Below are positions 49,754 through 64,000 of a stretch of 64,000 nucleotides of DNA, piece after piece. Origin of the DNA: Hoeflea prorocentri (GTDB lineage Bacteria; Pseudomonadota; Alphaproteobacteria; Rhizobiales; Rhizobiaceae); assembly GCF_027944115.1 (NCBI RefSeq), contig NZ_JAPJZI010000002.1, positions 1 to 64,000 on the forward strand, given 5' to 3'. The notes under the pieces are model-generated. The model saw nothing but the letters and a program-made list of their open reading frames with translations, made no database searches and was not told the origin of the DNA. Every line of letters begins with the position of its first letter. Position 1 is the first letter of the stretch. The position numbers were made by a program, and so were the translations under genes.

Positions 49754-50887
49754 ATGTATTTACGCACCATGTCTGCCGCGAATTACCGGTCCCTGCGATC
49801 CATCCGCATGGATCTGGGATCGGTCAATCTCTTTGTCGGCGCGAACGGAGCCGGGAAATCCAACCTCTATAGGGCGCTGCAACTCGTCAAGGCGGCTGCC
49901 GAAGGGCGTCTGACGCATCTGGTTGCCGAAGAGGGCGGCATTTACTCGGCGTTCTGGAGCGGTGGCACGCGCAAGCAGGAAAAGGCCCGGATCCGGCTTT
50001 CGGCGGAGATCGTCGACGAGAACACCGGCATTGTCTACGGCTACAGTGTCGAAACGGGATACAAACAGGCAGAGCCGTCTGCGGGTTTTCTCCATGAGGC
50101 GCAGATCAAGACTGAAGAGCTGACGGTCGATACCGGCCGGCGCCCGGTGGTGACCATGCGGCGCAAAGGCGCGCACATCACGGCTCGTGGCGAATCGGGT
50201 CGAATGGAAGACTATCCGGAGCAGGCCCTGACTTCGGAAACGGCCCTTTTTTTGCTTGGCGATGCCGGTCGTTATCCGGAAATCAGCACACTGCGGCACA
50301 TTATCGGACAATGGCGCTTCTACCACGGCTTCCGCTCCGATGCAGGCTCGCCCCTGCGTCTGCCATGTCTGCCCATCACCGCGCCGATGCTTGACGAGGA
50401 CGGAGCCAACATTGCTGCGGTTTTTGCGACCATTGCCCATACGCGCCAGGATACAATCGATCTCGACCGAGCGGTCTACGATGCCTTTTCGGGTGCTGCG
50501 CTATCCATTCCCGTGCCGGAGGAATATGCAAGTTTCGGCCTTGTGCTCCCAGAGTTTCCCAAGCGTGTGTTCCAACCGCGCGAACTGTCCGACGGACAGA
50601 TCCGGTTCCTGGCGCTGGCGGCTGCGCTTTTGTCCTACCGCCGCCCGCCCTTCATTGCGCTCAACGAACCCGAGGCAAGCCTCCATCCCGATATGCTTCC
50701 GGCGCTAGCCGCCATGATCGCCAACGCCTCCGCCGACTGCCAGGTCTGGGTTGTGACCCATTCACAGGCGCTGGCGGACGCCATTTCCGAGCGGTGCGGT
50801 GTGCGTGCAAAAACCGTCATCCGCCGCGACGGCGCCACCTGGATCGAAGGCATGACGCTGACGGGGCGGATCGACGATGAAGAGTAA
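49754..50887 (+). CDS. AAA/SMC-like ATPase (RecF-type P-loop protein)
   Basis: A 377 aa ATPase of the AAA_21/RecF-like group. Walker A is GANGAGKS at 29-36; the ABC-type signature is ELSDGQIRFLALAAALL near 290-305; Walker B is FIALNEPEASLHPDML near 315-330, with Asn where Asp is usual before EPE; the switch His is in VVTHSQALAD. There is no coiled coil of SMC length and no TOPRIM nuclease domain, so it is the stand-alone form whose role is often unknown, sometimes DNA repair or defence. It follows the chemoreceptor by 72 bp. Confidence 0.82.
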   Translation: MYLRTMSAANYRSLRSIRMDLGSVNLFVGANGAGKSNLYRALQLVKAAAEGRLTHLVAEEGGIYSAFWSGGTRKQEKARIRLSAEIVDENTGIVYGYSVETGYKQAEPSAGFLHEAQIKTEELTVDTGRRPVVTMRRKGAHITARGESGRMEDYPEQALTSETALFLLGDAGRYPEISTLRHIIGQWRFYHGFRSDAGSPLRLPCLPITAPMLDEDGANIAAVFATIAHTRQDTIDLDRAVYDAFSGAALSIPVPEEYASFGLVLPEFPKRVFQPRELSDGQIRFLALAAALLSYRRPPFIALNEPEASLHPDMLPALAAMIANASADCQVWVVTHSQALADAISERCGVRAKTVIRRDGATWIEGMTLTGRIDDEE

Positions 50888-51019
50888 TGGTCTCAATCGT
50901 TGTAAATCAGGTTAAAACAAATGCGTCACATAAACGCAGTAGTTGTGCCGTACACATAGGATCAATCGCCCAATACTGGGTGATTACTTATCTACAACAG
51001 AATTGCGACGGAGGGTGTG

Positions 51020-51967
51020 ATGAGTTTTCTGCAGATAGCAAGTTGGAATATTGAGCACTTGTCTGGTTCCAGCCGAGAGGCTAAGCGCCAGAGTGCCTTT
51101 GCATTGGCCGATCATATTGAGATGGCCGGTGTGGACATCATTGCGCTTCAAGAAATCTATGTGACCGAAGCGGATGAAGAAATTCAACTCAACGACGGTG
51201 GACCGACTATCTCATCAAGTGCCACAGATGACCGCCGCAATGCCGAGTTGGATGTGGTCTGCTACCTGTTGCAGGAGCATCTGGGTGATCCGTGGTCCTA
51301 TCTCATTCTTCCGAATCGGAATGCCGGCGACAAGTCGCAGCTTTGCGCTGTGATGTGGAACGCCAACAGGGTCCAGAAAACAGCGCACATGAAAATCGAC
51401 GTGCCGCACAAGGATGGCGATGACAATCTGTGGGATCGCGCGCCTCACGCTGTGAAATTTTCGGCAAAGTTGAAAGTTTGGCGACTTGACCAGGATGACG
51501 AGTGGATTGAAACGGAGGTTACGAAGAGTATTGCGCTCGTTCCATTGCACATGAAGTCAAATTACGGTGGCGTGACCAAGAACCGTCGTGTTCGCGGCAA
51601 GGAAGCAAAGGTCCTGTGCGAGCAGCTCGACGAAGTACGCGACCAAATCGACAACAGCTTGATTCTGATCGGCGATACAAACATTCTGAACAATGAAGAA
51701 CCGGCGATTGAGCGCTTCGTGGACAGCGGACTGATCGACCTCAACAACAATGACGGGGCGACCTATTGGAGCAAGCAGTACGGCGAAGCTCCATTCGACC
51801 GTGTGTTCGTTGCGGAGGGCCGTGATGAGTTCAAGTATTCTCGCCAATACGTGCTGCGTTCATCCGATCTGGCGGCCCATGATCTCTATCTCTCCGATCA
51901 TTATATGATCAAATTGAGTGTCAAAGCCTATCTTGATGATGACGATCCGCGCGAAGGTATCCAGTAG
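51020..51967 (+). CDS. Endonuclease/exonuclease/phosphatase family protein
   Basis: A 315 aa EEP (DNase I-like) superfamily hydrolase. Catalytic elements: Asn10 in SWNIEH, Glu45 in ALQEIY, His in VPLHMKSN, Asp and Asn in IGDTNIL, and the C-terminal SDH in LSDHYMIKL. No signal peptide; cytoplasmic. GGAGG lies five bases before the ATG. Base composition is noticeably more AT-rich than its neighbours, as is the 132 bp region before it, suggesting later acquisition. The substrate may be DNA, RNA or a phosphoester; not decidable here. Confidence 0.82.
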   Translation: MSFLQIASWNIEHLSGSSREAKRQSAFALADHIEMAGVDIIALQEIYVTEADEEIQLNDGGPTISSSATDDRRNAELDVVCYLLQEHLGDPWSYLILPNRNAGDKSQLCAVMWNANRVQKTAHMKIDVPHKDGDDNLWDRAPHAVKFSAKLKVWRLDQDDEWIETEVTKSIALVPLHMKSNYGGVTKNRRVRGKEAKVLCEQLDEVRDQIDNSLILIGDTNILNNEEPAIERFVDSGLIDLNNNDGATYWSKQYGEAPFDRVFVAEGRDEFKYSRQYVLRSSDLAAHDLYLSDHYMIKLSVKAYLDDDDPREGIQ

Positions 51968-51976
51968 GTCTACGAC

Positions 51977-51999
51977 GGCCGCGCTGTTTGAGCGCGGCC
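51977..51999. terminator. Strong hairpin after the EEP gene
   Basis: GGCCGCGCT (51977-51985) and AGCGCGGCC (51991-51999) form a perfect 9 bp stem with a GTTTG loop, nine bases after the stop codon. No T-run on either side (TTGAAGG follows). It lies between convergent genes and could serve both. Confidence 0.55.
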
Positions 52000-52054
52000 T
52001 TGAAGGCACCTGCGGATAGAAAGCCCGTTTTGGCCGCGGCCATTGTTTATGCTG

Positions 52055-53281
52055 TTAGTTGGTCAGGTTCAACCGGGATTGAGTGCCAAATGGCATTGCC
52101 GTCGATACCCGGATGGGCCTTGCCTGCATATCGAGCCGTGTGCCGACCATGATCATGCGCATGGCGTCCTCGGCGGCGCGGCGCAAGAGCTTGTGCGCGC
52201 TGCCGATTGCGGCTTCGAGTGTGCAGGGGCGTTTGATGATGGAGGCGAAAGCATCGATGCCGGCATCGAAAGTGCGGTCAACGCCACTGCCGATCGTACC
52301 GGCAAGGGCAATGGCCGGGATGCCGAGCTCGCGTGCCCGCCTTGCGACTTCGCATGGCACCTTTCCGTAGGGGCTCTGGCTGTCGAGCGATCCTTCCGCC
52401 GTGATCAGCAGATCGGCATCGCCGAGCATGGCTTCAAAGTCGAGATACTGCATGACAATATCAAAACGCGGATGCAGGGTTGCGTTGGCGAAGGCGGCAA
52501 GGCCGGCGCCGAGGCCACCCGATGCGCCGGAACCATTGACGTAACCGATATCGAGGCCAAGATCGATCCGAAGACGTTCCGCATAGGTTTCCAAAGCTTG
52601 TTCCAGTTGTTCAACCTGCTTCGGGCTCGCACCCTTTTGCGGGCCAAAGACCCGGGCAACGCCCTTCGGGCCCAACAGGACGTTGTGCCAGTTCACGGCG
52701 ACATCGACTGTCACGCGGGAGAGCCTTGGATCAAGGCCTGAGGGATCGATATGGGCGAGCGATGCAAGACCGGCGCCGCCGAGGGCGATATCGTCGCCAC
52801 GCATATCGGTGAGCCGGGCGCCAAGGGCCTGCGCCATTCCGGCGCCGCCATCGTTGATGCCGCTGTCACCGCAACCGATCAATATGCGTTTTGCACCGGA
52901 ATCCAGGGCAGCGCGTATGAGTTCGCCGACGCCGAAACTCGTGGTGACTGTCGGATCGCGCAAGTCGCGTGGCACCAGGCGCAAACCGGCAGCGGCGGCC
53001 ATTTCAATGACGGCGGTGGGTACGTCCTGCCCGCCGAGAAAACCGAAGAAGCTGTCAACCGGCTGACCGACGGGTCCCGTCACGACGATTTCGTGGAGGC
53101 TGCCGCCGGTGGCCTCAATCAGGCCCTTGGTGAAACCTTCGCCGCCATCGACCATCGGCGCCTTCATCAGGTTTGCGTCCGGAACGGCGCGTTTCACACC
53201 TTCGGAAATTGCCTCCACGACATCATCGACATCAAGGGATTCCTTGAAGCCGGATGGGGCGATCAGAACGTTGATAGACAT
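52055..53281 (-). CDS. Glycerate kinase (GckA/GarK type)
   Basis: A 408 aa glycerate kinase of the type I (GlxK/GarK) family, phosphorylating D-glycerate to a phosphoglycerate. Family segments: INVLIAPSGFKESLDVDDVVEAI at the start, VDGGEGFTKGLIEATGG, LIGCGDSGINDGGAGMAQALG and SASGGLGAGLAAF-like (GSGASGGLGAGL). AGGA is seven bases before the ATG at 53281. About 20-30 residues longer than the enteric enzymes at the C-terminus. It follows the anion transporter gene on the same strand by 105 bp, so uptake and phosphorylation of glycerate or a related acid are probably linked. Confidence 0.9.
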   Translation of the reverse strand: MSINVLIAPSGFKESLDVDDVVEAISEGVKRAVPDANLMKAPMVDGGEGFTKGLIEATGGSLHEIVVTGPVGQPVDSFFGFLGGQDVPTAVIEMAAAAGLRLVPRDLRDPTVTTSFGVGELIRAALDSGAKRILIGCGDSGINDGGAGMAQALGARLTDMRGDDIALGGAGLASLAHIDPSGLDPRLSRVTVDVAVNWHNVLLGPKGVARVFGPQKGASPKQVEQLEQALETYAERLRIDLGLDIGYVNGSGASGGLGAGLAAFANATLHPRFDIVMQYLDFEAMLGDADLLITAEGSLDSQSPYGKVPCEVARRARELGIPAIALAGTIGSGVDRTFDAGIDAFASIIKRPCTLEAAIGSAHKLLRRAAEDAMRMIMVGTRLDMQARPIRVSTAMPFGTQSRLNLTN

Positions 53282-53386
53282 TGTTTCGTCCTTTCGTGTT
53301 GCTGTGAAAGGAGAACGCCGAAGCACGAAATCTATTCCCTCAAAAACGGAAAAATCGCCGTATCAGGCAATTTTTCCTCTTTTTAA

Positions 53387-55240
53387 TCAAGCGGCTACGG
53401 GCTTGGGCTTTGGAACCGGGATACGGCTTGGTGCGGACAGGAATTGCCGTGGAACGCGGCAGGCACTTTCGGCGATGCCGATGGTTGCAGGTGCCAGGTC
53501 CGACGCATAAAGGCGGGCCGAATGGGACCGCAGGCGCACCATGTCCTCGCTCTTGTAAAGTTCGCGAACCGCCTGGCGCTCGACCGGATATCCGTCCCGT
53601 TTCAACCGGTCCCAGACATGCCACCAACCGGCGGCCCACATTTTGCGATCGCGGATGGTTGTCAGCATGACGGCGCGCAGGTGCTCGGGTGTGCAGACCT
53701 GCTCATTGCCGGTCGCTGCAATTCGCTGACTTATCCCGGTGTTTGAAACAATTTCGGCCTGTGTCGCCAGCACCGGTGAGGTGTCCTGCGGCAATTGATG
53801 CGGCCAGATGAAGAGCGCAAAGACGATGATGATCGCGGTCTTGACCGGCAGGAGCGGGATCGCGAGGTGCAGAAGGTCAGACTGCGTGAATGTCTCGCGG
53901 TCCGCATTGCCAAAGAGCGCAACGGGCTTGGCACTTGCCATCATGGTCTGGCAGAAGCCGGTGCCAAGCACCGTCACGAGCGCCAAGGTGACGACGTCAT
54001 GTCCGAAACCCGCCAGCGGCAGGGTCAAGGCCGGCACAAGCACGGCGGCACGGGCGCTGCGCGAGTTGATCACCAGATGGGACAGAACGGCGATGATGGT
54101 CAGGAAGGTGACGATGAGTGCGGTTGAACCGGTGGAGCCATCGGGCAGCACAGAAAGGGCCGCGTTTGCCATCCATGTGCTGGTGCCTGACAGGATGATG
54201 CTGTCGGCAATCACCACGGTTGCGGTCAGGAAGATCAGGAGCTCGACTTCAACCTTGCGGAATATGACCTTCGGGGATTCGGTCGTGAAGGGGCCGGTCA
54301 AAAGCAGAACGGCGCCGCCAATCGCGATCAGCGCGATGTCGATGCCATGCCATGGCGCGGTGATCCAAAGCGTGACGATCCCGACAAGCACAGTTGCAAT
54401 GCGCCATTGCCGCGAATCATGTGTGGCTGACAGGGAGCCTTCTGCCTGGAGAATAGCGTGCCGTTCATCGCGTGGGATGAAGAGCGCGATGATCAGCGCG
54501 ACGGCGATGTGGCTTGAAAGCAGCGTCAAGGGAAATGCCAGCATCAGCCATTCCAGATAGCCGATCGATACACCGGCGGCCCGGTTGATGGTTTCCACCG
54601 CGACCATGTGAGCACCGGCGCCGATGATCGAGCCGCCGGCGGAAAGCAGGATGACGGTGGGAAACATAAGGGCGAGCGCACGGGCGGAGCCTTTGCCGGG
54701 CATGCGGTCGGCAAGAGCCATGAAGACCGGCAGAAGCAAGGCGGCGCGGCCGGAGGTCGAAGGAATGAGGAATGCCGTTGCCGCGATCACAAATGCCAGC
54801 GCGTGAAAGAAGCCGGTCAGGCTGCGAAAGGGCCTGACGGCGGCAAAGGCCAGCCGTTCCATCAGCCCGCTGGTCTTTACGACGGCCGCGATGACGAACG
54901 CGGCAACCAGAAGCCAGATGAGCTCGCGGCCGAGCGTTGCATAAAGCTGTTCTTCGGGCACCACACCCGACAGAACGAGGACCAGGGCGGCGCTGACGGC
55001 GACAACGGAATCGGGAACCGGGGTCAGCGTCCATCCGATGATGGCCATTGCCGTGACCGCCAGGGCGATCCTGCCGCCCGTTTCGAGACCGGCGGGAAGT
55101 GACCACGCCGCGAGCAGGACCAAAGCGCAAAGCACAGCGGTGAGGATTGGGCGCGCCGACTTTTGAACCAGTTTGGAAACGGACCCCGCCATGTTCCCAT
55201 GAGGGAAGGGGTCTGAAATGGAATAGGCCGACACGCTCAC
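53387..55240 (-). CDS. SLC13/DASS-family anion transporter with C-terminal extension
   Basis: About 617 aa. An N-terminal membrane part (about 25-490) with some 12 hydrophobic segments matches the divalent anion:sodium symporter (DASS/CitT) family: LLVAAFVIAAVVKTSGLMERLAF, FLIPSTSGRAALLLPVFMAL (with the substrate-site STSGR, compare SNT) and a second half with SRSARAAVLVPALTLPLAG. A soluble C-terminal region of about 115 residues (CTPEHLRAVMLTTIRDRKMWAAGWWHVWDRL...) is unusual for the family. Start: GTG at 55240 has AGGAG six bases upstream, while the frame extends to a GTG at 55261. Substrate is probably a carboxylate, considering the glycerate kinase downstream. Confidence 0.83.
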   Translation of the reverse strand: MSVSAYSISDPFPHGNMAGSVSKLVQKSARPILTAVLCALVLLAAWSLPAGLETGGRIALAVTAMAIIGWTLTPVPDSVVAVSAALVLVLSGVVPEEQLYATLGRELIWLLVAAFVIAAVVKTSGLMERLAFAAVRPFRSLTGFFHALAFVIAATAFLIPSTSGRAALLLPVFMALADRMPGKGSARALALMFPTVILLSAGGSIIGAGAHMVAVETINRAAGVSIGYLEWLMLAFPLTLLSSHIAVALIIALFIPRDERHAILQAEGSLSATHDSRQWRIATVLVGIVTLWITAPWHGIDIALIAIGGAVLLLTGPFTTESPKVIFRKVEVELLIFLTATVVIADSIILSGTSTWMANAALSVLPDGSTGSTALIVTFLTIIAVLSHLVINSRSARAAVLVPALTLPLAGFGHDVVTLALVTVLGTGFCQTMMASAKPVALFGNADRETFTQSDLLHLAIPLLPVKTAIIIVFALFIWPHQLPQDTSPVLATQAEIVSNTGISQRIAATGNEQVCTPEHLRAVMLTTIRDRKMWAAGWWHVWDRLKRDGYPVERQAVRELYKSEDMVRLRSHSARLYASDLAPATIGIAESACRVPRQFLSAPSRIPVPKPKPVAA

Positions 55241-55309
55241 GATACTCTCCTGCTTTGTCACAAAACTGACATGAGAGGAGAACGCGGCCGGTTCCGGTTT
55301 ATTCCCGTT

Positions 55310-55942
55310 TTAAGGTGTGGCAAACGTCCCGTCGGGCGACAAAAGCGTATTCAGGTACTCCAAGGCCAATTCTGATCGCCGCGCGATGTAGTCCGGATCG
55401 AGCTCCGGCTGCCGGCCTATGGCCCGCCTGATCTGCAGGTCTCCGATCAAAAGCCCGAGATAGAGTTCGGTTGCGTCCTGCGGATCTTCGAACGACAGAT
55501 TGCCGGTATCGCGCGCCTGTTCCAGAACCTGGCGGATCAGCGGCGCGATGGTCTCGCGCCCGGTTTCCGAGATCGCTGCACCGAGTTCTCCCGTGGGATC
55601 GGCTGCCGCCGCCTGGTTCAGCGCTACGGCGCGTGTTCCGGTCAGCATGGATAAAAGTTTAGGGCCGAGTTCGGCGAGTGTCTGCAAAGCCGATCTGCCC
55701 TGTTTCAAAGATGCTTCCAGGTCACCGCGCACCTCATCCGCATTGCGGGCAACAAGCGCGCAGAAAAGCCCGCGTTTATCGCCATACCAGTTGTACAGGG
55801 TTTCATTGGAAGCCCGGGCCCGTTTCGCGATCGCCAGCATCGAGGTTCCCGCATATCCCTTTTCCTTCAGAACCGCATAGGCCGCCTCTTCGATCTGCTG
55901 CTGGCGGCGCGCACGATTTTCCTGCCTCAAATCAGTCTCCAT
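55310..55942 (-). CDS. TetR-family transcriptional regulator
   Basis: A 210 aa TetR-type repressor. The N-terminal HTH (about 8-55: QQQIEEAAYAVLKEKGYAGTSMLAIAKRARASNETLYNWYGDKRGLF) is clear; the C-terminal ligand-binding domain (about 75-200) has the TetR_C-like LYLGLLIGDLQIRRAIG. The ATG at 55942 has no good ribosome site and the transcript may be leaderless. It is divergent from a membrane-gene pair, with a perfect palindrome in the shared region, and is followed on the same strand by the anion transporter and glycerate kinase. It may control either or both sides. Confidence 0.9.
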   Translation of the reverse strand: METDLRQENRARRQQQIEEAAYAVLKEKGYAGTSMLAIAKRARASNETLYNWYGDKRGLFCALVARNADEVRGDLEASLKQGRSALQTLAELGPKLLSMLTGTRAVALNQAAAADPTGELGAAISETGRETIAPLIRQVLEQARDTGNLSFEDPQDATELYLGLLIGDLQIRRAIGRQPELDPDYIARRSELALEYLNTLLSPDGTFATP

Positions 55943-55956
55943 AAAACACTTGACAA

Positions 55957-55980
55957 TATCCGTAACGAAAATTACGGATA
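55957..55980. promoter_or_regulatory. TetR operator palindrome
   Basis: TATCCGTAA (55957-55965) and TTACGGATA (55972-55980) are perfect 9-base inverted repeats separated by CGAAAA. The site lies 15 bases upstream of the tetR start and its right arm covers the proposed -35 of the divergent promoter, so binding by the adjacent TetR protein would block both directions. Confidence 0.72.
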
Positions 55981-56000
55981 CTTGCAACCGTACATATAAT
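55972..56000 (+). promoter_or_regulatory. Promoter of the TetR-controlled membrane gene pair
   Basis: A perfect TATAAT (55995-56000) is preceded at 17 bases by TTACGG (55972-55977), which lies inside the right arm of the TetR palindrome. GGAGG (56010-56014) and the ATG at 56020 follow closely, giving a short leader. Confidence 0.5.
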
Positions 56001-56019
56001 TACGCTTTTGGAGGTTAAT

Positions 56020-56400
56020 ATGGAACTCACTAGCGACAAAGCCGCGCCGGCCGCCCTGACCGCGCTCATAATCCTGCAACTTGTGATGCTCGGAGCACTT
56101 TTTGCCGGGGTGCCACCGCACCCGCCGGAAACGACGCCGCTTTTCGGTATCGGGCCATTTCTGGGAATGTCGCTGTCCGTCACAGCAGCGGCGCTGATGA
56201 CCGGATCGGCTGCGACCCGCACGGGTTCTGTCCTGTGTGTTCTTGCGGTTTTGTGCGCTTTTGTTTCATTCGGACCGCAGAAATATTTCGACGAACAATT
56301 CGACCTCATCTGGCCCGCTGTCGTCTGCGGTCAGTTTGCCTCCGTTGTATTGCTTCTTCGGGTTTTTGCCGGGCCGTCGCACCGGGGGGTATCACATTGA
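56020..56400 (+). CDS. Small four-TM membrane protein, TetR-controlled
   Basis: A 126 aa inner-membrane protein with about four hydrophobic segments (for instance ALIILQLVMLGALFAGV near 15-31, VLCVLAVLCAFVSF, and VVCGQFASVVLLLRVFAG near the end). I do not recognise a family with certainty. GGAGG lies five bases before the ATG. Its stop overlaps the start of the next gene (TTGA), and both are divergent from TetR, so they form one regulated unit. Confidence 0.75.
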   Translation: MELTSDKAAPAALTALIILQLVMLGALFAGVPPHPPETTPLFGIGPFLGMSLSVTAAALMTGSAATRTGSVLCVLAVLCAFVSFGPQKYFDEQFDLIWPAVVCGQFASVVLLLRVFAGPSHRGVSH

Positions 56401-56882
56401 TAACCACGATTTCAGCACTCACATCGCTGCTTTTCACCGGCGCGATTTTCGGGTTCTTCTATGCCTGGGTCTGCTCGACCATGTGGGGCCTTGACGCTGC
56501 CGACTCGAGGACAGCGATCGAAGCAATGCAGGCCATGAACCAATCGGTGCGCAATGTCGTGTTTTTCCCCGCCTTCTTCCTGACGCCGGTTGTGCTGGTA
56601 TTCAGCGCCATCGTTTTTGCGATGTCCGGCCTGTACAGGAGCGCAATCTTTTTTGGGCTTGCGGCAGGTCTTTATACTACCGGCGCATTGGTGCCCACGG
56701 CGCTTGTCAATGTTCCAATGAACGAGGCGCTCGCATCGATCACCATCCCCGCAAACCCGGCGGAGGCTGCCAGAATCTGGGCCGAGTACTCCCCAAAATG
56801 GCAACTCTGGAACCAACTGCGTACCGTTGCATCGGGCGTTGCTCTGCTGCTGACCGGATATGCGCTGATAAGCGGGTCTTAA
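56397..56882 (+). CDS. DUF1772 (anthrone oxygenase-like) membrane protein
   Basis: About 161 aa with four hydrophobic segments. The pattern FTGAIFGFFYAWVCSTMWGLD at the start, AMQAMNQSVRN and the later NVPMNEAL ... W ... W-NQLRTVASGVALLL matches DUF1772, the family related to anthrone oxygenases. The TTG start at 56397 shares bases with the upstream TGA stop and follows GGGGGG eight bases before, so translation is coupled. The longer frame from 56235 is inside the upstream gene. Such genes are often TetR-controlled; physiological substrate unknown. Confidence 0.78.
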   Translation: MITTISALTSLLFTGAIFGFFYAWVCSTMWGLDAADSRTAIEAMQAMNQSVRNVVFFPAFFLTPVVLVFSAIVFAMSGLYRSAIFFGLAAGLYTTGALVPTALVNVPMNEALASITIPANPAEAARIWAEYSPKWQLWNQLRTVASGVALLLTGYALISGS

Positions 56883-56948
56883 GTGAGGCATAGGCCGTTT
56901 CGGCCGGAATGGGCACGATGGCTGGAAAGGCTGGCTTTGGAGGTCCGG

Positions 56949-58199
56949 TTATTCGATCCGTTCGTCCGTGTCATACAGGAAATGACGGCTGTGATTGATC
57001 GGGGATGCCAGCAGGACGCCGGCGCGAAACTTGCCGGTCCGTACGAGGCGGTAGGCCCGGGCCATAAAATGGCCCTCCTGCGACGTCTCAGGCTCATCGG
57101 TGAGGAACATTTCGCGGTTAAAATCTCTGGAGACATAGCTCGGCCAATTGTCGAAATGGACATTGCCGACGAGATAGGATGTGTGATTTTCTATCCCGCT
57201 GTTTTCGATGGTCGATGGGAAGGTTCCTTCCGGGAAATCCTTTTGTCTTTCCTCATTGGACAGATGGTACCACGCCCAGTTCAGATGGTGATCGCCGAAG
57301 AACTCGGTGAAACTGAGCATGAGATATCCCAGTTGCTCGCGCTCCAATATGGCCGAGGCGGTTTCGACGAGACCGGGAACATGGGAGCGAAACCCGTTCT
57401 TGCAAAGCGGCGCGTCGGAGGCATGCAGCAACATGTCGTCTTCGAACCAGAACATGCCCTTTGCCTGTTCCAGATTGTCGAAATGTCTGGCAGCGTTGCG
57501 GCGTCCGCCCATGATGCCGAGATTGCCCGAACGCAAGACGGAGAACCCGAAGGTTTTGCAAAGCGCGTCATATTCGGCCTGCGTTGTGGGGTTTGTTGAG
57601 TTGTCCTGCAGAACCAGTGTCCTACAGGACAGAAGGTCCGGGCACGCCTGCTTCACCGAGTTCAGCCATAGACCGAACTGTTTCGGCGTATTCATGCTCA
57701 TGACGTAAACTGCGGCATCATGGGCAGGGACAGGTCGCGGGTAGTCTGCATGCGCTTCCGTCAGCAGGCGGCTGTCAGGTGCGGCCGCAATGCGGATCGC
57801 GACCAGTTCCTTGGCTATCCATTCGACCCTGTATCCGTTCTGCTTCAGGTGCCGTGCGGCCGCCGCGACATCTGCGCCCGGCAAGTGTTTTTTGCGTATT
57901 CGTATGAACTTCGGGCTGAGGCGCTGAATGTCGAGTTTGCCAAGGGTTTTCAGCGCTGTTCCCGGGACATTGATCTGCAAGATGTCGACATGGCCCAGAC
58001 CTCGGCTTTTCAGCCGATCGAGGATCTTGTCTGTGGGTACACCGGCACCCAGTGTGAAGCGGAGCCAGCCGCTTTCGTCCTGGCGCTGGAGTTTAAACCA
58101 GTCTTTTGCCGTCCTTCCCAACCGCATGCTCACGATTGGTGCCGACTGGTTCAGGCTGTCCCGGATCGTTGCGCTGATCCAGCGTTCAACGGCATTCAT
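56949..58199 (-). CDS. FkbM-like segment fused to a glycosyltransferase-like domain
   Basis: 416 aa. Residues ~70-140 resemble the C-terminal part of FkbM methyltransferases (HVDILQINVPGTALKTLG, PKFIRIRKKH, LKQNGYRVEWIAKELVAIR), but acidic residues of the usual LKIDVEGAE motif are replaced (INVPGTA) and the N-terminal part of that domain is short, so methyltransferase activity is doubtful. Residues ~160-400 look like a GT-A glycosyltransferase: YVMSMNTPKQFGLWLNSV, VLQDNSTNP, then an acidic FWFEDDML motif (253-255) that could bind metal and sugar nucleotide. No signal peptide. It overlaps the upstream HtrL-like gene by four bases (ATGA), so the two act together. Confidence 0.65.
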   Translation of the reverse strand: MNAVERWISATIRDSLNQSAPIVSMRLGRTAKDWFKLQRQDESGWLRFTLGAGVPTDKILDRLKSRGLGHVDILQINVPGTALKTLGKLDIQRLSPKFIRIRKKHLPGADVAAAARHLKQNGYRVEWIAKELVAIRIAAAPDSRLLTEAHADYPRPVPAHDAAVYVMSMNTPKQFGLWLNSVKQACPDLLSCRTLVLQDNSTNPTTQAEYDALCKTFGFSVLRSGNLGIMGGRRNAARHFDNLEQAKGMFWFEDDMLLHASDAPLCKNGFRSHVPGLVETASAILEREQLGYLMLSFTEFFGDHHLNWAWYHLSNEERQKDFPEGTFPSTIENSGIENHTSYLVGNVHFDNWPSYVSRDFNREMFLTDEPETSQEGHFMARAYRLVRTGKFRAGVLLASPINHSRHFLYDTDERIE

Positions 58200-59008
58200 G
58201 AGCCGGACCGCGCTGCTATGTCGGCAAAGAAAGGCCAGATGAGGCCGTCGGCGCCGATGAAACGGGTTTCGAAGATGTCCGGGTGAAGATTGCCCAATAT
58301 GGTCAGTATGCTTTCTTCCGTTCCCATCAGCTTCTGGTGCAGGGTGAAACTCAACATGGCCTGGTAGAGGCGGTTCGCCTCGACAACAAACGCCTCAGGC
58401 CCGCCGAAAAAGCCGCCCCGTGCCACCCAGTTTATCGGCCTGCCGCCGGCATATCGTTCCATTGCGGCGCGCTCAAAACCATGTACTTCATGTACGGGCT
58501 GATAGGGAAAACAAAGCAGAAGAAATCTGCTTAACATGGGTGCGAGTTCGGCGCTCGTGATGGCCTTTGTCAACAGGTCCAGCGGCACTGTGTGCGTGAT
58601 CCCCGCATCGATCCAGGCGAAGCGGCTGGTGCCGAACCGGTTCCGGCGGGCTTCTTCGGCAAGCCAGCCCATCTTGGCCATGACCAGCGGATTGTAGTGC
58701 GGCAGGCGCGCCTGAGGACTGGAGGGCAGCCATGAGGCCTGTTCCAGCCAATGTTTGGAGTTTCGGATTTTCTGAATTTGCTGGAAGTCCGGCTGTTTCT
58801 CGAGCGTTTCGAGATCGAGTGGCACGTGTATCTGATTGTGACGATCGTCAAGCCCGAGATCGGCGGGACCATAGACCACCAGGGGCATGCCGATATCACA
58901 CAAGGCTTGCAGCTGTGTTGTGTAGAATGAAAACGGCCTTGCGAAATCCTTCGAAAGTTCCGCTCTTCCGATATCAATTGCCGCAGTTACGAAGGTTATG
59001 TCTTTCAT
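58196..59008 (-). CDS. HtrL/YibB (WlaTC-like) family glycosyltransferase
   Basis: 270 aa, recognised as the HtrL/YibB family from its start ITFVTAAIDIGR, the HYNPLVMAKMGWLAEEARRN segment (104-123), FAWIDAGITHT (130-140, with the acidic WIDAG motif) and the WVARGGFFGG / HQKLMGTEESILTIL region. Members such as WlaTC lie in surface-polysaccharide loci and are thought to be glycosyltransferases acting in the cytoplasm. It is first in a two-gene minus-strand unit and faces the small Ser/Pro-rich protein gene across an AT-rich region. Confidence 0.8.
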   Translation of the reverse strand: MKDITFVTAAIDIGRAELSKDFARPFSFYTTQLQALCDIGMPLVVYGPADLGLDDRHNQIHVPLDLETLEKQPDFQQIQKIRNSKHWLEQASWLPSSPQARLPHYNPLVMAKMGWLAEEARRNRFGTSRFAWIDAGITHTVPLDLLTKAITSAELAPMLSRFLLLCFPYQPVHEVHGFERAAMERYAGGRPINWVARGGFFGGPEAFVVEANRLYQAMLSFTLHQKLMGTEESILTILGNLHPDIFETRFIGADGLIWPFFADIAARSGS

Positions 59009-59349
59009 TTTTTGTGCAATTTATACTTGTATTTTTTGACAAAAACAAAACGAAAAACGCTACTTGATTGATAGCTCTGCGGGTCAATCTTTCCGATTTT
59101 TATAAGATTTGCAGATAAATTACACGTGGAATCATAATACTGAAAGCGGTTTTGATTATTGTTATTTGATAGTGAATGATTACTAGATTTATTATGTATT
59201 TCCTTCCTTTGCCCTTGACTTTTACTCAAGGCTTGGCGACATTGCCCGCTGCTTTTAGGGGGCTAACCTTAAGTCCGAAATCAGGATGCGATCTCGCTTG
59301 AGCGCGGTCGATGTCAGTCTGCAACACGAAACTTGACGAGCGTTACAAG
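59009..59349. other. AT-rich divergent promoter region
   Basis: 341 bp between the minus-strand transferase pair and the small Tat-protein gene. Positions 59009-59230 are strongly AT-rich compared with the rest of the window (for instance TTTTTATAAGATTTGC, TGATTATTGTTATTTGATAG). One minus-strand frame (59005-59229) is Asn/Ser/Lys-rich, without a ribosome site, and I consider it non-coding. The composition suggests a strong or silenced promoter, or recent acquisition. Confidence 0.55.
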
Positions 59350-59616
59350 ATGGTGTCACCGCTGAAGAAGAAGATATCCAGGCGCAAGCTATTGAAAGCC
59401 TTTGCTGCAAGTGTTGCGGTCGGCTCCATAACAGTGCTTCCGAAAAACTGGACAAAGCCGCTTGTTGAGACCATCGTCGTGCCGGCGCACGCCGCGGTGT
59501 CAGGACCTCCGGCGAGCCCGTCGGGAAGCCCATCCATGTCGCTTTCTCCATCTCCGGCACCCGCTTCTCCATCACCATCGCCATCGCCATCGCCTTCTCT
59601 TTCCCTTTCTGATTAG
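59350..59616 (+). CDS. Small Tat-signal protein with Ser/Pro repeat tail
   Basis: 88 aa from the ATG at 59350 (an in-frame ATG at 59311 would add 13 residues; neither has a strong ribosome site). A twin-arginine motif, SRRKLLKAF (10-18), is followed by a hydrophobic segment and LPKNWTKPLVETIVVPAHA with an AxA-type cleavage site near residue 48. The predicted mature part is 40 residues: 16 Ser, 12 Pro and only small or aliphatic residues otherwise, with no Lys, Arg, Cys or aromatic. It ends in an (SP)n run and SLSLSD. It has no enzymatic features and looks like an acceptor or structural peptide. It is followed by a GlcNAc-transferase-like gene, so I infer it may be the target of glycosylation. 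Confidence 0.7.
   Translation: MVSPLKKKISRRKLLKAFAASVAVGSITVLPKNWTKPLVETIVVPAHAAVSGPPASPSGSPSMSLSPSPAPASPSPSPSPSPSLSLSD
59562..59601 (+). repeat. In-frame (Ser-Pro) short repeat
   Basis: Repeated TCNCCA-type hexamers (CCATCA, CCATCG, CCATCG, CCATCG) encode the Ser-Pro run at the C-terminus of the small Tat protein. Six-base units keep the frame if copies are lost or gained. Confidence 0.7.
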
Positions 59617-59759
59617 CGATACGTGGTGAGTCATCGTCCTCTTCTCCGGGGATGACCAGGTTCCAGGGAGATGGCGCTTGGGCGGCATTGCGATTAATCT
59701 CCAGGCCGGAAGGGCTGTGTAGCAGGCACGGCCCTGATACGATTCAGTGCTGAGCGGAC

Positions 59760-61010
59760 ATGGCGACGATTTTCATACAGATTGCTTCCTATCGCGACAC
59801 GGAGCTGTTGCCGACGCTTCGGGATTGCGTCAGCAAGGCCCGGCACCCTGAAAACCTCAGATTTGGCATTTGCTGGCAACGGGACGAAACCGAGACGCTC
59901 GGCGAATTTGCCGATGACAGCCGGTTCCGGGTCCGCGAACATCACTACAGCGTTTCGAAAGGTCTTGGCTGGGCGAGGCAGCAGACTCAGAGCCTTTACG
60001 ATGGCGAAGACTATTCGATGCAGGTCGATGCCCATCAGCGCTTCGTCGAGGATTGGGATGTCATTCTCATAGACATGCTCAATTCAATCGACAGCGAAAA
60101 GCCGCTGCTTACCTGCTATGCGCCACCCTACGATCCGCTGAATGAGGATCAGCCGCTGTCCCATACGCCCTCGTCGCTTGGTTTCGACCAGTTTACGCCA
60201 GAAGGTGCATTGCTGATCCGGCCGACGCATATGAAGGACTGGCAGGCGCGTCAATCACCGGTTCCGGGCCGTTATTTTTCCGGACACTTCTCATTCACGA
60301 TCGGCCAATGGTGCCGGGACGTGCTTTACGATCCTGAATACTATTTCCATGGTGAAGAGATCAGCATGGCGGTGCGGTCCTATACGCATGGCTACGATAT
60401 CTTCTATCCGCACCGTGTTGTGGTCTGGCACGAATACACCCGCAAATACCGCACGACCCATTGGAATGATCACGTGCCGGAAAAGGGCGCGACCGTTTCC
60501 TGGTACAAACGCAACGAGGACAGCCAGCGTCGGATGCGGATCCTCTTCAAGCAGGAAGAGGCTGATATCGACTTCAGGCACCTGGGTTTCGGGCCTGCTC
60601 GCTCTTTGGAGCACTATGAGCGGTATGCCGGCGTGAATTTCCGACTCAAGGCGGTGCAACGTTACACATTCGAAAACCACGAGCCGCCAAATCCCGAGAT
60701 CTACGGATCGGATGAGGAGTGGGTCTCCAACAATGTCGACGATTTCTGGTGCCGCGTCCTGCTGCCCGAGGGTACCTACGATCCGAAAACGGACTACGAA
60801 ACCCTGTACGTTTCGATCAACAATGCCCTCGGAGAGTCCATCTATCGCAAGGATATGCACGGGGACGAGGTCCGTGCGATTTTCGATCAAAGGCGCCCTG
60901 CATTCATTCAGCCCTATAAATCATTCGAGGAAGCAGCCGGCTGGACGGTGAGGCTCAAGGACAGTGCGGGCGAGGAACTGGCGGAGATCACGCGGCCGAT
61001 TGTCCGTTAG
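59760..61010 (+). CDS. GlcNAc-transferase family protein (Skp1-GnT-like)
   Basis: 416 aa, matching the GlcNAc family whose eukaryotic members add GlcNAc to hydroxyproline of Skp1. Family features: start TIFIQIASYRDTELLPTLRDCVSKA, FGICWQRDE, a DAH motif at 90-92 (MQVDAHQRFVEDWD) in place of DxD for metal/sugar-nucleotide binding, then FSGHFSFTIGQWCRDVLYDPEYYFHGEEISMAVR and HRVVVWHEYTRKYRTTHW. The C-terminal ~70 residues form an extra segment. It has no TM or signal, so it acts in the cytoplasm. It follows the Ser/Pro-rich Tat protein by 143 bp on the same strand. Donor and acceptor are inferred, not shown. Confidence 0.82.
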   Translation: MATIFIQIASYRDTELLPTLRDCVSKARHPENLRFGICWQRDETETLGEFADDSRFRVREHHYSVSKGLGWARQQTQSLYDGEDYSMQVDAHQRFVEDWDVILIDMLNSIDSEKPLLTCYAPPYDPLNEDQPLSHTPSSLGFDQFTPEGALLIRPTHMKDWQARQSPVPGRYFSGHFSFTIGQWCRDVLYDPEYYFHGEEISMAVRSYTHGYDIFYPHRVVVWHEYTRKYRTTHWNDHVPEKGATVSWYKRNEDSQRRMRILFKQEEADIDFRHLGFGPARSLEHYERYAGVNFRLKAVQRYTFENHEPPNPEIYGSDEEWVSNNVDDFWCRVLLPEGTYDPKTDYETLYVSINNALGESIYRKDMHGDEVRAIFDQRRPAFIQPYKSFEEAAGWTVRLKDSAGEELAEITRPIVR

Positions 61011-61027
61011 GCTGACGCGACGCCTGA

Positions 61028-61873
61028 TCAGTGATCTGTCGTGAAGCCCAGATCATCGAGAAAATGGAGGATGTCGGGACCACAATATGCAAGATCGCCA
61101 TAGGTGATCTCATAGGCGTCGACGCCCTGAACAACCTCGCTCAACTCTGCAAAGCCGCGATCGTCAAAATTATCCGCGTTGGCCAGGCTGCCCAGAAGGC
61201 GGACCGATGCCTTGCTCCGGGGAACGGCGTTGATCACCGTTCGGCTGCCTTCCTTGTAGGTTACAAAGAAGACCGCGTCGAACCTCGGCATCTCAGCCGG
61301 AACCCCTGATTTCGATTTGAGCAGAATGGCTTCTTCGGACGCAATCAGGCGGTGTTCGTGTCGTGCCGCTCCGATCTCCTGTGCCAGAGCGCTCTGGACG
61401 TCTGTTTCAAGGCAGATCGGGCGTGGGAAGGTCGACATCGCCCGGTCCAGCGCGATACAGGCCAGTTCGTCGCTCAGACAGTGATAGCCTCTGAAATCTA
61501 GCCATGCCGAAAGGGTTGATTTTCCGGCCCCGGAAACCCCTGGCAGCAAGGCGCAGCGCCCGTTGGCCGATATGGCGGCCGCATGCATGATCAGTTCGCC
61601 ACGCCCGCGCGATGCCAGGCTGTGTATGACTTCGGCAAGCAACAGAACTGCTGCGTCGGCGGGCTGCTTGTCCCGGTAGACCTCGGATCCGTCCCGAAAA
61701 AGGATGAAGCCCGACTGGTCATCGCCATCAAGCTCCAACGACAGATTGCCGTTTGCAGTATCAACCTGGCGAAACTCGGAGAACAGGAAGTGGAGCAACT
61801 CTTGTGCAGCGGCGCTCCTGGCTGAAATGCAGACCGTCGCCCCCGCCAGGCCTACGGTCTTTTCAGTCGGCAT
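61028..61873 (-). CDS. HPr kinase-like P-loop protein
   Basis: 281 aa, related to the HPr kinase/phosphorylase fold. The sequence LIMHAAAISANGRCALLPGVSGAGKST (95-120) contains the P-loop GVSGAGKS at 112-119 and is followed by LSDELACI (133-140), the likely catalytic acidic segment. It lacks the N-terminal HPrK domain and belongs to the kinase branch often found beside PqqD-like proteins in peptide-modification loci, including lasso-peptide clusters where such kinases phosphorylate Ser. The ATG at 61873 lies inside the end of the PqqD-like gene (11 bases overlap), so the two are coupled. The longer frame to 61957 overlaps that gene and is not used. Confidence 0.8.
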   Translation of the reverse strand: MPTEKTVGLAGATVCISARSAAAQELLHFLFSEFRQVDTANGNLSLELDGDDQSGFILFRDGSEVYRDKQPADAAVLLLAEVIHSLASRGRGELIMHAAAISANGRCALLPGVSGAGKSTLSAWLDFRGYHCLSDELACIALDRAMSTFPRPICLETDVQSALAQEIGAARHEHRLIASEEAILLKSKSGVPAEMPRFDAVFFVTYKEGSRTVINAVPRSKASVRLLGSLANADNFDDRGFAELSEVVQGVDAYEITYGDLAYCGPDILHFLDDLGFTTDH

Positions 61874-62141
61874 TGAGCTGAATGCACTTCTTTCCCTGCA
61901 ACTGTTCCAGCGCCGCGTCGACATCCTGAGATATGTCCTTGGCGCCATCGAAGGCATCCGACAGTGTCTGCTGAATGTCTGCGACCGAGTTGGTTCCGTC
62001 GCACAGGCTCCACACCAGTGCCGCGGTCTCGTTCAGACACAGCGCATTGGAATGCGAGGCGTTGTAGAGGATGACTTCACCGTCAAAGTAAGACGCTTTG
62101 AAGCCGGGTGCCTGAGCAGGCTTGTCGGAGTCATTGTACAT
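61863..62141 (-). CDS. PqqD-like protein (RiPP recognition element)
   Basis: 92 aa, a single PqqD/RRE-type winged-helix domain: GEVILYNASHSNALCLNETAALVWSLCDGTNSVADIQQTLSDAF and a C-terminal DVDAALEQLQGKKCI helix. PqqD-like domains bind leader peptides and present them to modifying enzymes. No pqq genes are nearby, so it is not for PQQ. It overlaps the HPr-kinase-like gene. The AGGGGG ribosome-site-like sequence before its ATG lies in the arm of a perfect hairpin (62152-62174). Confidence 0.82.
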   Translation of the reverse strand: MYNDSDKPAQAPGFKASYFDGEVILYNASHSNALCLNETAALVWSLCDGTNSVADIQQTLSDAFDGAKDISQDVDAALEQLQGKKCIQLNAD

Positions 62142-62151
62142 GCGGCGAAAC

Positions 62152-62174
62152 CTACCCCCTGATGACGGGGGTAG
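62152..62174 (-). promoter_or_regulatory. Hairpin covering the pqqD-like ribosome site
   Basis: CTACCCCC (62152-62159) and GGGGGTAG (62167-62174) form a perfect 8 bp stem with a seven-base loop. On the minus strand, the 3' arm contains AGGGGG 11-12 bases before the PqqD-like ATG at 62141. In RNA this hairpin would hide the ribosome site; in DNA it could be an operator. Confidence 0.55.
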
Positions 62175-62276
62175 TCAATGACGGTGACGGCTTGGCCGCA
62201 TGCGGCTTACGACAGCTACCGGGTGCTTCCACACGGGTGTTCAATCAGAGGTTTTGACGACCAATCCCTGCCTGGC

Positions 62277-62930
62277 TCACCCGATCTTCTGGCCGGTTTT
62301 TGCCCAATCGGCCAGGAAGGCCTCAAGGCCCTTGTCCGTCAGCGGGTGTTTGACGAGTGCACGCAGGGTCGCCGGCGGTACGGTCGCCACATCCGCGCCG
62401 ATCAGAGCGGCTTCCTTGACGTGATTGACGGTGCGGATGGAGGCGGCGAGGATTTCCGTCGCAAAGCCGTAATTGTCATAGATCTTGCGGATTTCGGCGA
62501 TCAGTTCCATGCCGTCTGCAGCCATATCGTCAACGCGCCCGACGAAAGGCGAAATGAAGGTGGCGCCGGCCTTGGCTGCGAGCAGCGCCTGATTGGCCGA
62601 AAAGCACAAGGTGACATTCGTCTTGTGTCCGGCCGATGTCAGCGCCTTGCAGGCTTTCAGCCCGTCCATGGTCAGCGGCAGCTTGATGCAGATATTGTCC
62701 GCGATCTTTGCCAGAATGTCCGCCTCGGCCATCATGCCATCGAACTCGGTGGCCGTGACTTCGGCGGAAACCGGGCCGTCGACGATTGAACAGATCTCCT
62801 TTGTCACCTCCATGATGTCCCGTCCGGACTTCATGATCAGCGACGGATTGGTGGTCACACCATCCAACAGACCCAGCGCGTTCAATTCCTCGATCTCGGC
62901 AACATCTGCCGTGTCGACAAAAAATTTCAT
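62277..62930 (-). CDS. fsa: Fructose-6-phosphate aldolase / transaldolase-like protein
   Basis: 217 aa TalC/FSA-type short transaldolase. It begins [16 protein letters not shown], with the [10 protein letters not shown] segment (23-32) and the Schiff-base Lys83 in NICIKLPLT. Later segments [29 protein letters not shown] are typical. Function is either fructose-6-phosphate aldolase or transaldolase; the small-size group needs assay to separate them. It is divergent from priA with only a short gap, as in related genomes. Confidence 0.9.
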
Positions 62931-63002
62931 CGTATGTCTCGTTCCTTAATTGGCGGTCGCGGGTTTTCTTTAGATCAATCGCGGGGCAAGGTCACCCTCA
63001 AG

Positions 63003-64000
63003 ATGAAAGATTCGCCGCAACTGCCGCTTGGCTGCGAGACTGCCATTGTGCCGGTCATGGTCCCCCTGCCGACGCCGCAGGCCTATTCCTATGCCGTGCC
63101 GGAGGGCCTGGAGGCCGCTCCGGGTGCGATCGTGCAGGTGCCGCTGGGCCCGAGACAGGTCGCCGGTATTGTCTGGGATGGCGAGACCGACGCGGTTGAC
63201 CCGAAGAAACTGCGCCCCATCACCCATGTCTTCGATTGCCCGCCGATTGCCGCGGATATGCGCCGGTTTCTTGACTGGGTGGCGGCCTATACATTGTCGC
63301 CGCCGGGTCTTGTTGCCCGCATGGCGCTGCGCGCTCCGGCGGCATTCGAGCCGGCGGCTCCGACACAGGGGTTGAGATTGGGACGCGCGCGTCCGGAGCG
63401 CATGACGGCTGCCCGCGAACGGGTCATTGCCATGGCAGAAGACGGTTTGAGCTGGACCCGCACCGGGTTGGCGCGGGCCGCCGGTGTTTCCGTCAGCGTT
63501 GTCGACGGGCTCTTGAAGCAAGATGTTTTCGAGACGATCCTGATACCGCCGCAGCCGGTGGTGCCTCATCCCGATCCTGATTTCCGCTTGCCGGAACTGA
63601 GTGATGATCAACAGGCTGCTGTTCGCCGTTTGCTCGGTGAGGGTGGAAAGCCGCCGGCCGTATCGCTGATTGATGGGGTCACAGGATCGGGCAAGACGGA
63701 GGTTTACTTCGAAGCGGTGGCCGAGACGATCCGGCAGGGCCGGCAGGTGCTTATCCTGCTGCCGGAAATCGCGCTGACCTCGGTTTTTCTGGAGCGCTTT
63801 GAACGGCGCTTCGGCTGCAAGCCGGCCGAATGGCATTCGGAGCTTGCGCCGCGCATGCGCGAGAAAGTCTGGCGGCAGGCGGCGACCGGCGATGTTCGTG
63901 TCGTTGCAGGCGCGCGCTCGTCACTCTTTCTGCCCTTTGAAAATCTCGGCCTTGTTATCGTCGATGAAGAGCACGATGCCGCCTATAAACAGGAAGACCG
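63003..64000 (+). CDS. priA: Primosomal protein N' PriA (5' part, runs off window)
   Basis: 332 codons of the replication-restart helicase. The N-terminal 3'-DNA-binding domain has VPLPTPQAYSYAVPEG and GAIVQVPLGPRQVAGIVW (about 20-60), a winged-helix region follows (about 140-190), and the helicase part has Walker A GVTGSGKTEVYFEA (about 226-239), LLPEIALTSVFLERFERRFG and Walker B VIVDEEHDAAYKQED at the window end. No stop is met before 64000. The ATG at 63003 has no strong ribosome site; an in-frame ATG at 62934 would add 23 residues. Fe/Zn-binding Cys pairs lie beyond the window. Confidence 0.93.
   Translation, partial: MKDSPQLPLGCETAIVPVMVPLPTPQAYSYAVPEGLEAAPGAIVQVPLGPRQVAGIVWDGETDAVDPKKLRPITHVFDCPPIAADMRRFLDWVAAYTLSPPGLVARMALRAPAAFEPAAPTQGLRLGRARPERMTAARERVIAMAEDGLSWTRTGLARAAGVSVSVVDGLLKQDVFETILIPPQPVVPHPDPDFRLPELSDDQQAAVRRLLGEGGKPPAVSLIDGVTGSGKTEVYFEAVAETIRQGRQVLILLPEIALTSVFLERFERRFGCKPAEWHSELAPRMREKVWRQAATGDVRVVAGARSSLFLPFENLGLVIVDEEHDAAYKQED

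Follow-up and report, generated by a model that had tools for sequence, protein, structure and literature searches.

What could six neighbouring genes be doing together when they combine a very small Ser/Pro-rich protein bearing a twin-arginine translocation (Tat)-like signal with predicted transferases, a peptide-binding protein, and a kinase-like protein? The question is raised by positions 56949-62141 of a 64,000-nucleotide stretch of Hoeflea prorocentri DNA (the window), which is the start of a 455-kb contig in a genome of 5.04 Mb. An open reading frame (ORF) check found the six genes, here termed A to F, where the original prediction had placed them, and its inventory stood with a probable corrected start for E and possibly one for C. 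Judging from the anatomy of its genes, their predicted folds, conserved motifs, and repeated linkage and fusion elsewhere, the locus is probably a cassette dedicated to the O-glycosylation of a single small mucin-like protein, C, in the cytoplasm.

The putative substrate and its predicted modifying proteins

Gene C (59311-59616, plus strand) encodes a small protein with a Tat-like signal, the putative substrate by its signal and motif, of 101 aa or, from M14 (59350), which may be the start, 88 aa. Its leader consists of RRKLLKAF, a hydrophobic run, and then LPKNWTKPLVETIVVPAHA, thus displaying an RR motif, a hydrophobic run, and an AxA-type site (AHA); the Pfam TAT model (15.7 versus a cut-off of 22.7) and an NCBIfam Tat profile both matched below cut-off. 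The 40-aa tail after the predicted AHA cleavage site (59494-59613, plus strand) contains 16 S, 12 P, and 0 T, which bears out the Ser/Pro mature part of that length proposed earlier, and C is divisible into leader-like and tail-like parts as in a ribosomally synthesized and post-translationally modified peptide (RiPP), its modification being putative. The tail uses five different Ser codons and four different Pro codons, and a CCATCG tandem repeat of 4.3 copies (59569-59594, plus strand; Tandem Repeats Finder) accounts for just 26 bases of its coding sequence; it is therefore more than a young repeat, which suggests that amino-acid composition, rather than one DNA repeat, is being kept. The motif W-x-K-P-[LVI]-[VI]…AHA of C was found again in the Tat proteins of loci encoding relatives of gene D (L186, L221, L225, L230, and L243) and in part in L182, although L186 and L221 are near-identical and not independent instances; all these relatives came from gene neighbourhoods only. 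C lacks the anchor-like stretch, hydrophobic and basic, at the end of the L186 and L221 Tat proteins, so that the surface display of a glycopeptide in the original prediction was not supported.

Ten window ORFs were scanned with Pfam profiles, and Pfam and NCBIfam matches were judged at the curated cut-offs of each family. Gene D (59760-61010, plus strand) encodes a homologue of GT60-type polypeptide N-acetylglucosamine (GlcNAc) transferases, matching PF11397 with 229.3 bits against a gathering cut-off of 21. Gene B (58196-59008, minus strand) encodes an HtrL/YibB-type protein, a predicted GT-A-like glycosyltransferase, with a weak match that was nevertheless above cut-off for PF09612 (27.5 versus 24.1 bits) and did not reach that of the NCBIfam equivalog (36.5 versus 264.9); its structure model (pLDDT 91.8) gave the blood-group enzymes GTA/GTB as best Foldseek matches (E 8e-7, TMq ~0.49). 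Gene A (56949-58199, minus strand), which overlaps B by four bases, had been described as an FkbM-like/glycosyltransferase fusion. A full FkbM methyltransferase was ruled out, as PF05050 matched below cut-off (17.1 versus 22.7 bits) over residues 63-125 and profile positions 106-173 only, leaving a C-terminal remnant (~residues 1-155). The transferase half stood by fold match: the C-terminal half has no Pfam family, and the model (mean 66.5, confident only from ~residue 160, with residues 1-157 mostly of low confidence) matched POMGnT1, LH3, GalNAc-T2, GnT-I, and TarP in Foldseek (TMq 0.2-0.4), which together with the alignment points to a GT-A-like domain (~160-416, EDDM motif). The remnant is explained by a relative in a Saprospiraceae genome (L190:1282-3714), where one 810-aa ORF contains FkbM methyltransferase, HtrL/YibB, and A-type domains, the FkbM domain (61.4 bits) being complete and placed first. 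The locus thus likely contains three GT-A-type transferases, A and B from their models and D from its family.

Gene F (61863-62141, minus strand) encodes a PqqD-like peptide-binding protein of the RiPP recognition element (RRE) type (PF05402, 50.5 bits versus 23.4) that did not reach the curated cut-off of PqqD_rel_X (14.5 versus 35 bits). As in RRE-dependent RiPP systems, it is encoded beside modifying enzymes, and RRE-enzyme fusions occur in relatives. Gene E (61028-61873, minus strand) encodes an HprK-related kinase that stayed under the HprK_rel_A cut-off (87.4 versus 200 bits) and retains the His, GVSGAGKS (Walker A/P-loop), and acidic SDE motifs seen in other HprK-type proteins of such loci. 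Its ORF reaches 61957, which would overlap F by 95 bases; M29 (61873) is probably the start, since the resulting 281-aa protein nearly equals HprK_rel_A in length (280 positions). Across A, B, D, E, and F, mean hydropathy over 19 residues did not exceed 1.42; the lack of any strongly hydrophobic stretch fits soluble cytoplasmic enzymes. A sequence search of solved structures with D, E, and F gave no match.

In the scheme proposed here for substrate, order, sugar, phosphate site, and export, F would bind precursor C in the cytoplasm via the conserved leader region RR...W-x-K-P...AHA, and D would add the probable first sugar, alpha-GlcNAc on Ser. Together D, B, and A would build short O-glycans on the Ser/Pro tail, E would phosphorylate a serine or the glycan, and the finished glycopeptide would exit through Tat, with the leader cut after AHA. 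The Tat system can export folded, already modified proteins. D is placed first because of GT60 biology, as these enzymes start O-glycans on Dictyostelium Skp1 hydroxyproline and Trypanosoma cruzi mucin Thr (excerpts of PMC8724618 and PMC3769586).

Fusions and sister loci

A GT60 alignment scan of the genome_contigs collection gave 122 relatives, of which 80 loci were retained and analysed. PqqD and/or HprK were identified in 12 of them (L177, L180, L182, L186, L221, L231, L240, L242, L246, L248, L250, and L251), several with the domains in single ORFs. A 714-aa ORF in L231 (8319-10463) combines GT60, PqqD-like (20.6 bits, just under the cut-off), and HprK_rel_A-like (60 bits, under the cut-off) parts, and its neighbours are an NTP_transf_5 gene and a Tat Thr/Pro protein; such fusions permit direct tests, as this ORF holds glycosyltransferase, peptide-binding, and kinase parts next to its likely substrate. 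L186 encodes a GT60-PqqD ORF accompanied by a Tat protein resembling C and by an A/B fusion, an arrangement that L221 repeats by our own hidden Markov models (HMMs) only, and L246 a GT60-NTP_transf_5 ORF beside HprK. PqqD-GT2-FucT_N, GT60-radical SAM, and GT10-GT60 fusions in L182 (3941-13752) surround a Tat protein with SSPTTPTPTPDT repeats.

A BLAST relative of A lay beside GT60 in 9/80 loci, namely L173 (Alphaproteobacteria), L175 and L190 (Saprospiraceae), L177 (Acidobacteria), L179 (Jiulongibacter), L180 (Gemmatimonadetes), L181 (Neisseriaceae), and L186 and L221 (Halieaceae). B-type and A-type domains formed one ORF in seven of these (L173, L175, L179, L180, L186, L190, and L221); L177 had a cut copy of the fusion at the contig end and L181 had A only. 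HprK, PqqD, GT60, and the A/B fusion are consecutive in L180. This linkage was seen from the GT60 side, as only GT60-bearing loci were inspected, with a background of no A transferase domain in any of 387 other genomes drawn similarly from the phylum. GT60 itself occurred in 4/384 other class genomes and 27/397 other phylum genomes, so that most GT60-bearing genomes are without A. Searches of plasmids with A or B gave no match at E 1e-5. In the GT60 tree (FastTree), which was unused in the argument, the smallest clade printed around D had 38 leaves and no support value (the next two nodes 0.80 and 0.93) and included the GT60s of every A-relative locus plus Burkholderia-type ones.

These data also bear on whether the transferases act on another acceptor, such as lipooligosaccharide or another surface glycan, with C, PqqD, and HprK forming a separate, adjacent peptide-modifying unit. 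HtrL_YibB proteins have been associated with lipooligosaccharide biosynthesis loci (excerpt of PMC4172580), a GT60 and an A-type gene lie in a type VI secretion locus without PqqD in L181, units of the HPr-rel-A type with Tat proteins occur without GT60 (L084-L091 and L093), and mechanical rules, described below, failed to confirm an association of Tat Ser/Thr/Pro proteins with PqqD/HprK among GT60 loci. Against this, the GT60-PqqD, GT60-PqqD-HprK, and HPAT-PqqD fusions (HPAT, hydroxyproline arabinosyltransferase) join glycosyltransfer to a peptide-binding domain, and we regard a separate acceptor as unlikely.

The HPAT fusions belong to a sister locus present in 3/7 same-genus genomes (G002, G003, and G005; L071, L072, and L073), which contains an NTP_transf_5-type gene, HPAT-PqqD, GT60, a 2-oxoglutarate (2OG) oxygenase, a fusion of O-fucosyltransferase (O-FucT) with HprK, a second PqqD, and a Tat protein with a variable Ser/Thr/Pro tail and a nearly constant leader. 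HPAT-PqqD and O-FucT-HprK ORFs were identified in L071 and L073, with O-FucT at 25-29 bits against a cut-off of 31.5, and L072 repeats the L073 arrangement by our own HMMs only; a second 2OG-like ORF (L073:8521-9180) had no Pfam match and is not claimed as an oxygenase. Elsewhere, L225 has an HPAT-GT60-2OG fusion, L243 a similar one with HPAT just under the cut-off, and L230 an O-FucT-HPAT fusion. HPAT assignments rest on Pfam and the A versus B assignment on BLAST, as our own-profile HPAT, HtrL, and GA labels cross-react because the profiles share fusion sequences.

The presence of PF13640 oxygenases in sister loci, together with HPAT-type transferases and GT60, makes proline hydroxylation plausible there, and these loci may glycosylate hydroxyproline. 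A Skp1-like, proline-directed pathway in the window would similarly require hydroxylation of the tail prolines before D adds GlcNAc, and in its favour, GT60 is accompanied in the sister loci by HPAT-type transferases and 2OG-Fe(II) oxygenases. The window genome has no match to PF13640, the only hydroxylase family searched, and no 2OG gene was found among the ten window ORFs scanned with Pfam, making this pathway highly improbable for C; Ser is favoured as the acceptor, given a tail devoid of Thr and a genome devoid of PF13640 matches. The hydroxyproline context raised in the original prediction thus fits the sister loci and not the window genome. Its central claim, modification of the small Ser/Pro protein by the set ahead of Tat export, gains independent support from the linkage of GT60, PqqD, HprK, and Tat Ser/Thr/Pro proteins elsewhere, including in fusions, and is weakened by the exact six-gene set having been seen, among the loci inspected, in the window only.

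Counts around GT60 and HprK genes

By eye, Tat-signal proteins with Ser/Thr/Pro tracts were found in 15/80 GT60 loci (L175, L176, L179, L182, L186, L221, L225, L230, L231, L238, L242, L243, L248, L250, and L251); the protein is ~5 kb from GT60 at the other cluster end in L242, L248, and L250, and is lipoprotein-like and doubtful in L238. They occurred in 8/12 loci with PqqD/HprK versus 7/68 without (P=8e-5), the 12 having been scrutinised harder, and in 6/12 versus 7/68 (P=0.003) with a uniform tract rule and Tat by eye. Two fully mechanical rules, which overlook L242, L248, and other convincing cases, gave 3/12 versus 6/68 (P=0.13) and 2/12 versus 4/68 (P=0.22). The enrichment inside the 80 loci was consequently set aside as unconfirmed, its by-eye P value deriving from uneven scrutiny; the fusions carry the argument. 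As a check of specificity, the second mechanical rule, which requires Tat plus a Ser/Thr/Pro tract, matched 6/80 GT60 loci (all convincing) versus 0/60 HprK regions, 0/29 phylum GT60 regions, and 0/7 fsa regions.

Besides the mechanical counts, several observations weigh against the O-glycosylation cassette. No locus with exactly all six genes other than the window was found among the loci inspected, so that their predicted co-occurrence elsewhere was not borne out. L180 and L177 have HprK, PqqD, GT60, and A (with B) and no Tat protein was found in them (L177 is at a contig edge), L186 and L221 are without HprK within the 21 kb examined, and among the 80 GT60 loci 68 are without PqqD/HprK and 71 without A. 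Some GT60 loci belong to cyanobacteria, lie close to RTX genes, or form part of type VI secretion loci, and the 0/29 phylum regions show that many GT60 genes have no Tat Ser/Thr/Pro partner. Ser/Thr/Pro-rich ORFs counted without the Tat filter, a count dominated by GC-rich shadow ORFs, were not enriched (59 in 955 kb near GT60 and 44 in 771 kb far from it). The C leader alone as query returned only chance matches, and none against plasmids. In the window, C and D are oriented opposite to A/B and E/F, which gives no support for co-regulation.

The kinase raises the further alternative of a phosphopeptide system resembling HPr-rel-A (NCBIfam TIGR04352/TIGR04353 with NTP_transf_5), in which this species would chiefly phosphorylate its peptide and glycosylate it little or not at all. 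HPr-rel-A systems share PqqD, HprK, and a small Tat protein with the window. To compare them, 60 HprK regions were selected from the places listed, mostly best-scoring ones with long reading frames. Under a fixed rule, a small Tat-like ORF lay within 1.7 kb in 17/35 loci without AsnB/B2 versus 2/25 lasso-type loci (P=7e-4), both of the latter appearing spurious; by eye it was convincing in 15/35, and such ORFs numbered 21 in 277 kb near HprK versus 6 in 323 kb far from it. Above the HprK_rel_A cut-off, a small Tat protein with the pattern RR...APVI.sL...A.A stood beside PqqD/HprK in 9/10 loci (L084-L091 and L093; not L092), where it is a likely substrate of the HPr-rel-A system. This pairing and the motifs kept by E speak for the phosphopeptide alternative; the lack of an NTP_transf_5 nucleotidyltransferase match to our own profile in window positions 50001-64000 and the three added transferase genes speak against it, and it is considered the least probable of the explanations. 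The scores of E and F below the HprK_rel_A and PqqD_rel_X cut-offs also set the window apart from HPr-rel-A systems. Since PqqD/HprK seem to be generally paired with a small Tat protein, the glycosyltransferases of the proposed cassette are read as an added layer.

HprK matches were found in 3/7 same-genus genomes with a best E of only 2.4e-6, so none is taken as an orthologue of E. A lasso peptide cluster was ruled out, in agreement with the original prediction: AsnB and B2 profiles (from L029) matched no ORF in window positions 50001-64000, and the ten scanned ORFs had no Pfam match to them. The same genome has a second PqqD/HprK locus (L081, C1:1196000-1209000), in which NTP_transf_5 is accompanied by transferases of the GT1 and GT8-like types; adjoining PqqD is a small protein of 57 aa that has a hydrophobic run and lacks RR. 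A third PqqD locus (L080, C1:3769000-3782000) has PqqD, B2, HprK, and a nucleotidyltransferase by our own profiles and no AsnB match within the 13 kb examined, a lasso-like set without a nearby cyclase gene. Small Tat-like proteins with Ser/Arg/Pro, Ser/Pro, Pro/Leu, or Gly/Ser tails were also seen directly beside HprK genes in L121, L125, L127, L143, and L075, with no GT60 match in the stretch.

Relation to known systems and genomic setting

The proposed cassette relates to a known theme, in which a Ser-rich protein is glycosylated in the cytoplasm by dedicated enzymes and then exported; related kits occur in several bacterial phyla. Gram-positive serine-rich repeat proteins (SRRPs) are glycosylated by dedicated cytoplasmic glycosyltransferases encoded in one locus and leave through the accessory Sec system after glycosylation. 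With these shared features, they would be the nearest working analogue; the window locus differs in its Tat signal, PqqD and HprK, other glycosyltransferase families, and a 40-residue tail in place of a giant adhesin. Glycocins are likewise ribosomal peptides glycosylated by a dedicated, although different, glycosyltransferase, and are not known to have a PqqD, Tat signal, or mucin-like tail. D shares PF11397 with the Dictyostelium Skp1 enzyme Gnt1 and the T. cruzi mucin enzyme, whose known acceptors are Skp1 hydroxyproline and mucin Thr in Ser/Thr/Pro-rich tracts, and differs from these eukaryotic GT60 enzymes in being bacterial, in presumably acting on a Tat precursor with a PqqD partner, and in the lack of a PF13640 hydroxylase. 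The excerpted RRE-Finder text lists RRE-glycosyltransferase fusions as absent from known classes (PMC7470986); the fusions described above likewise join an RRE to a glycosyltransferase, and Tat Ser/Thr/Pro proteins are proposed here as their substrate, none being given in that excerpt. No published description of the system was found in searches of one open-access library, subscription papers and preprints being outside this coverage.

Relatives of the cassette transferases are best known from animals, plants, and protists. It is possible, and put forward tentatively, that a family of mini-mucins, guided by RRE (PqqD) domains and exported through Tat, exists in bacteria. In it, interchangeable modules related to eukaryote-like protein O-glycosylation enzymes (GT60, HPAT, O-FucT, and prolyl-hydroxylase-type oxygenase) would be joined to HprK kinase domains and to recognition domains of the RiPP type, and the enzymes of Skp1/mucin and plant hydroxyproline-glycan modification may have a common origin with this bacterial pool. 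Should this hold, leader recognition by PqqD in the manner of RiPPs and mucin-type O-glycosylation would be joined in one pathway, RRE-glycosyltransferase fusions and HprK-related kinases would gain a substrate and a role, and simple bacterial models and tools would become available for GT60, HPAT, and O-FucT chemistry.

The fsa-priA pair (window 62277-63998) was conserved in 7/7 same-genus genomes; within the 14-14.5 kb fetched around it there, no match was found to any of 11 further window proteins tested (A to F and five upstream). A clean empty site at fsa was not definable, as the fsa neighbours differed among the three stretches listed.

GT60 genes were also observed in other settings. 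In four type VI secretion loci (annotated in L032 and L033, recognised from ORFs in L031 and L181), GT60 directly follows a gene for a fimbrial-like or other signal-bearing protein, a possible glycosylated secretion-system part. On a Phyllobacterium plasmid (L034:2110-9927), GT60 adjoins a gene of 2174 codons for a calcium-binding protein that carries long PTP repeats, with a type I secretion system nearby.

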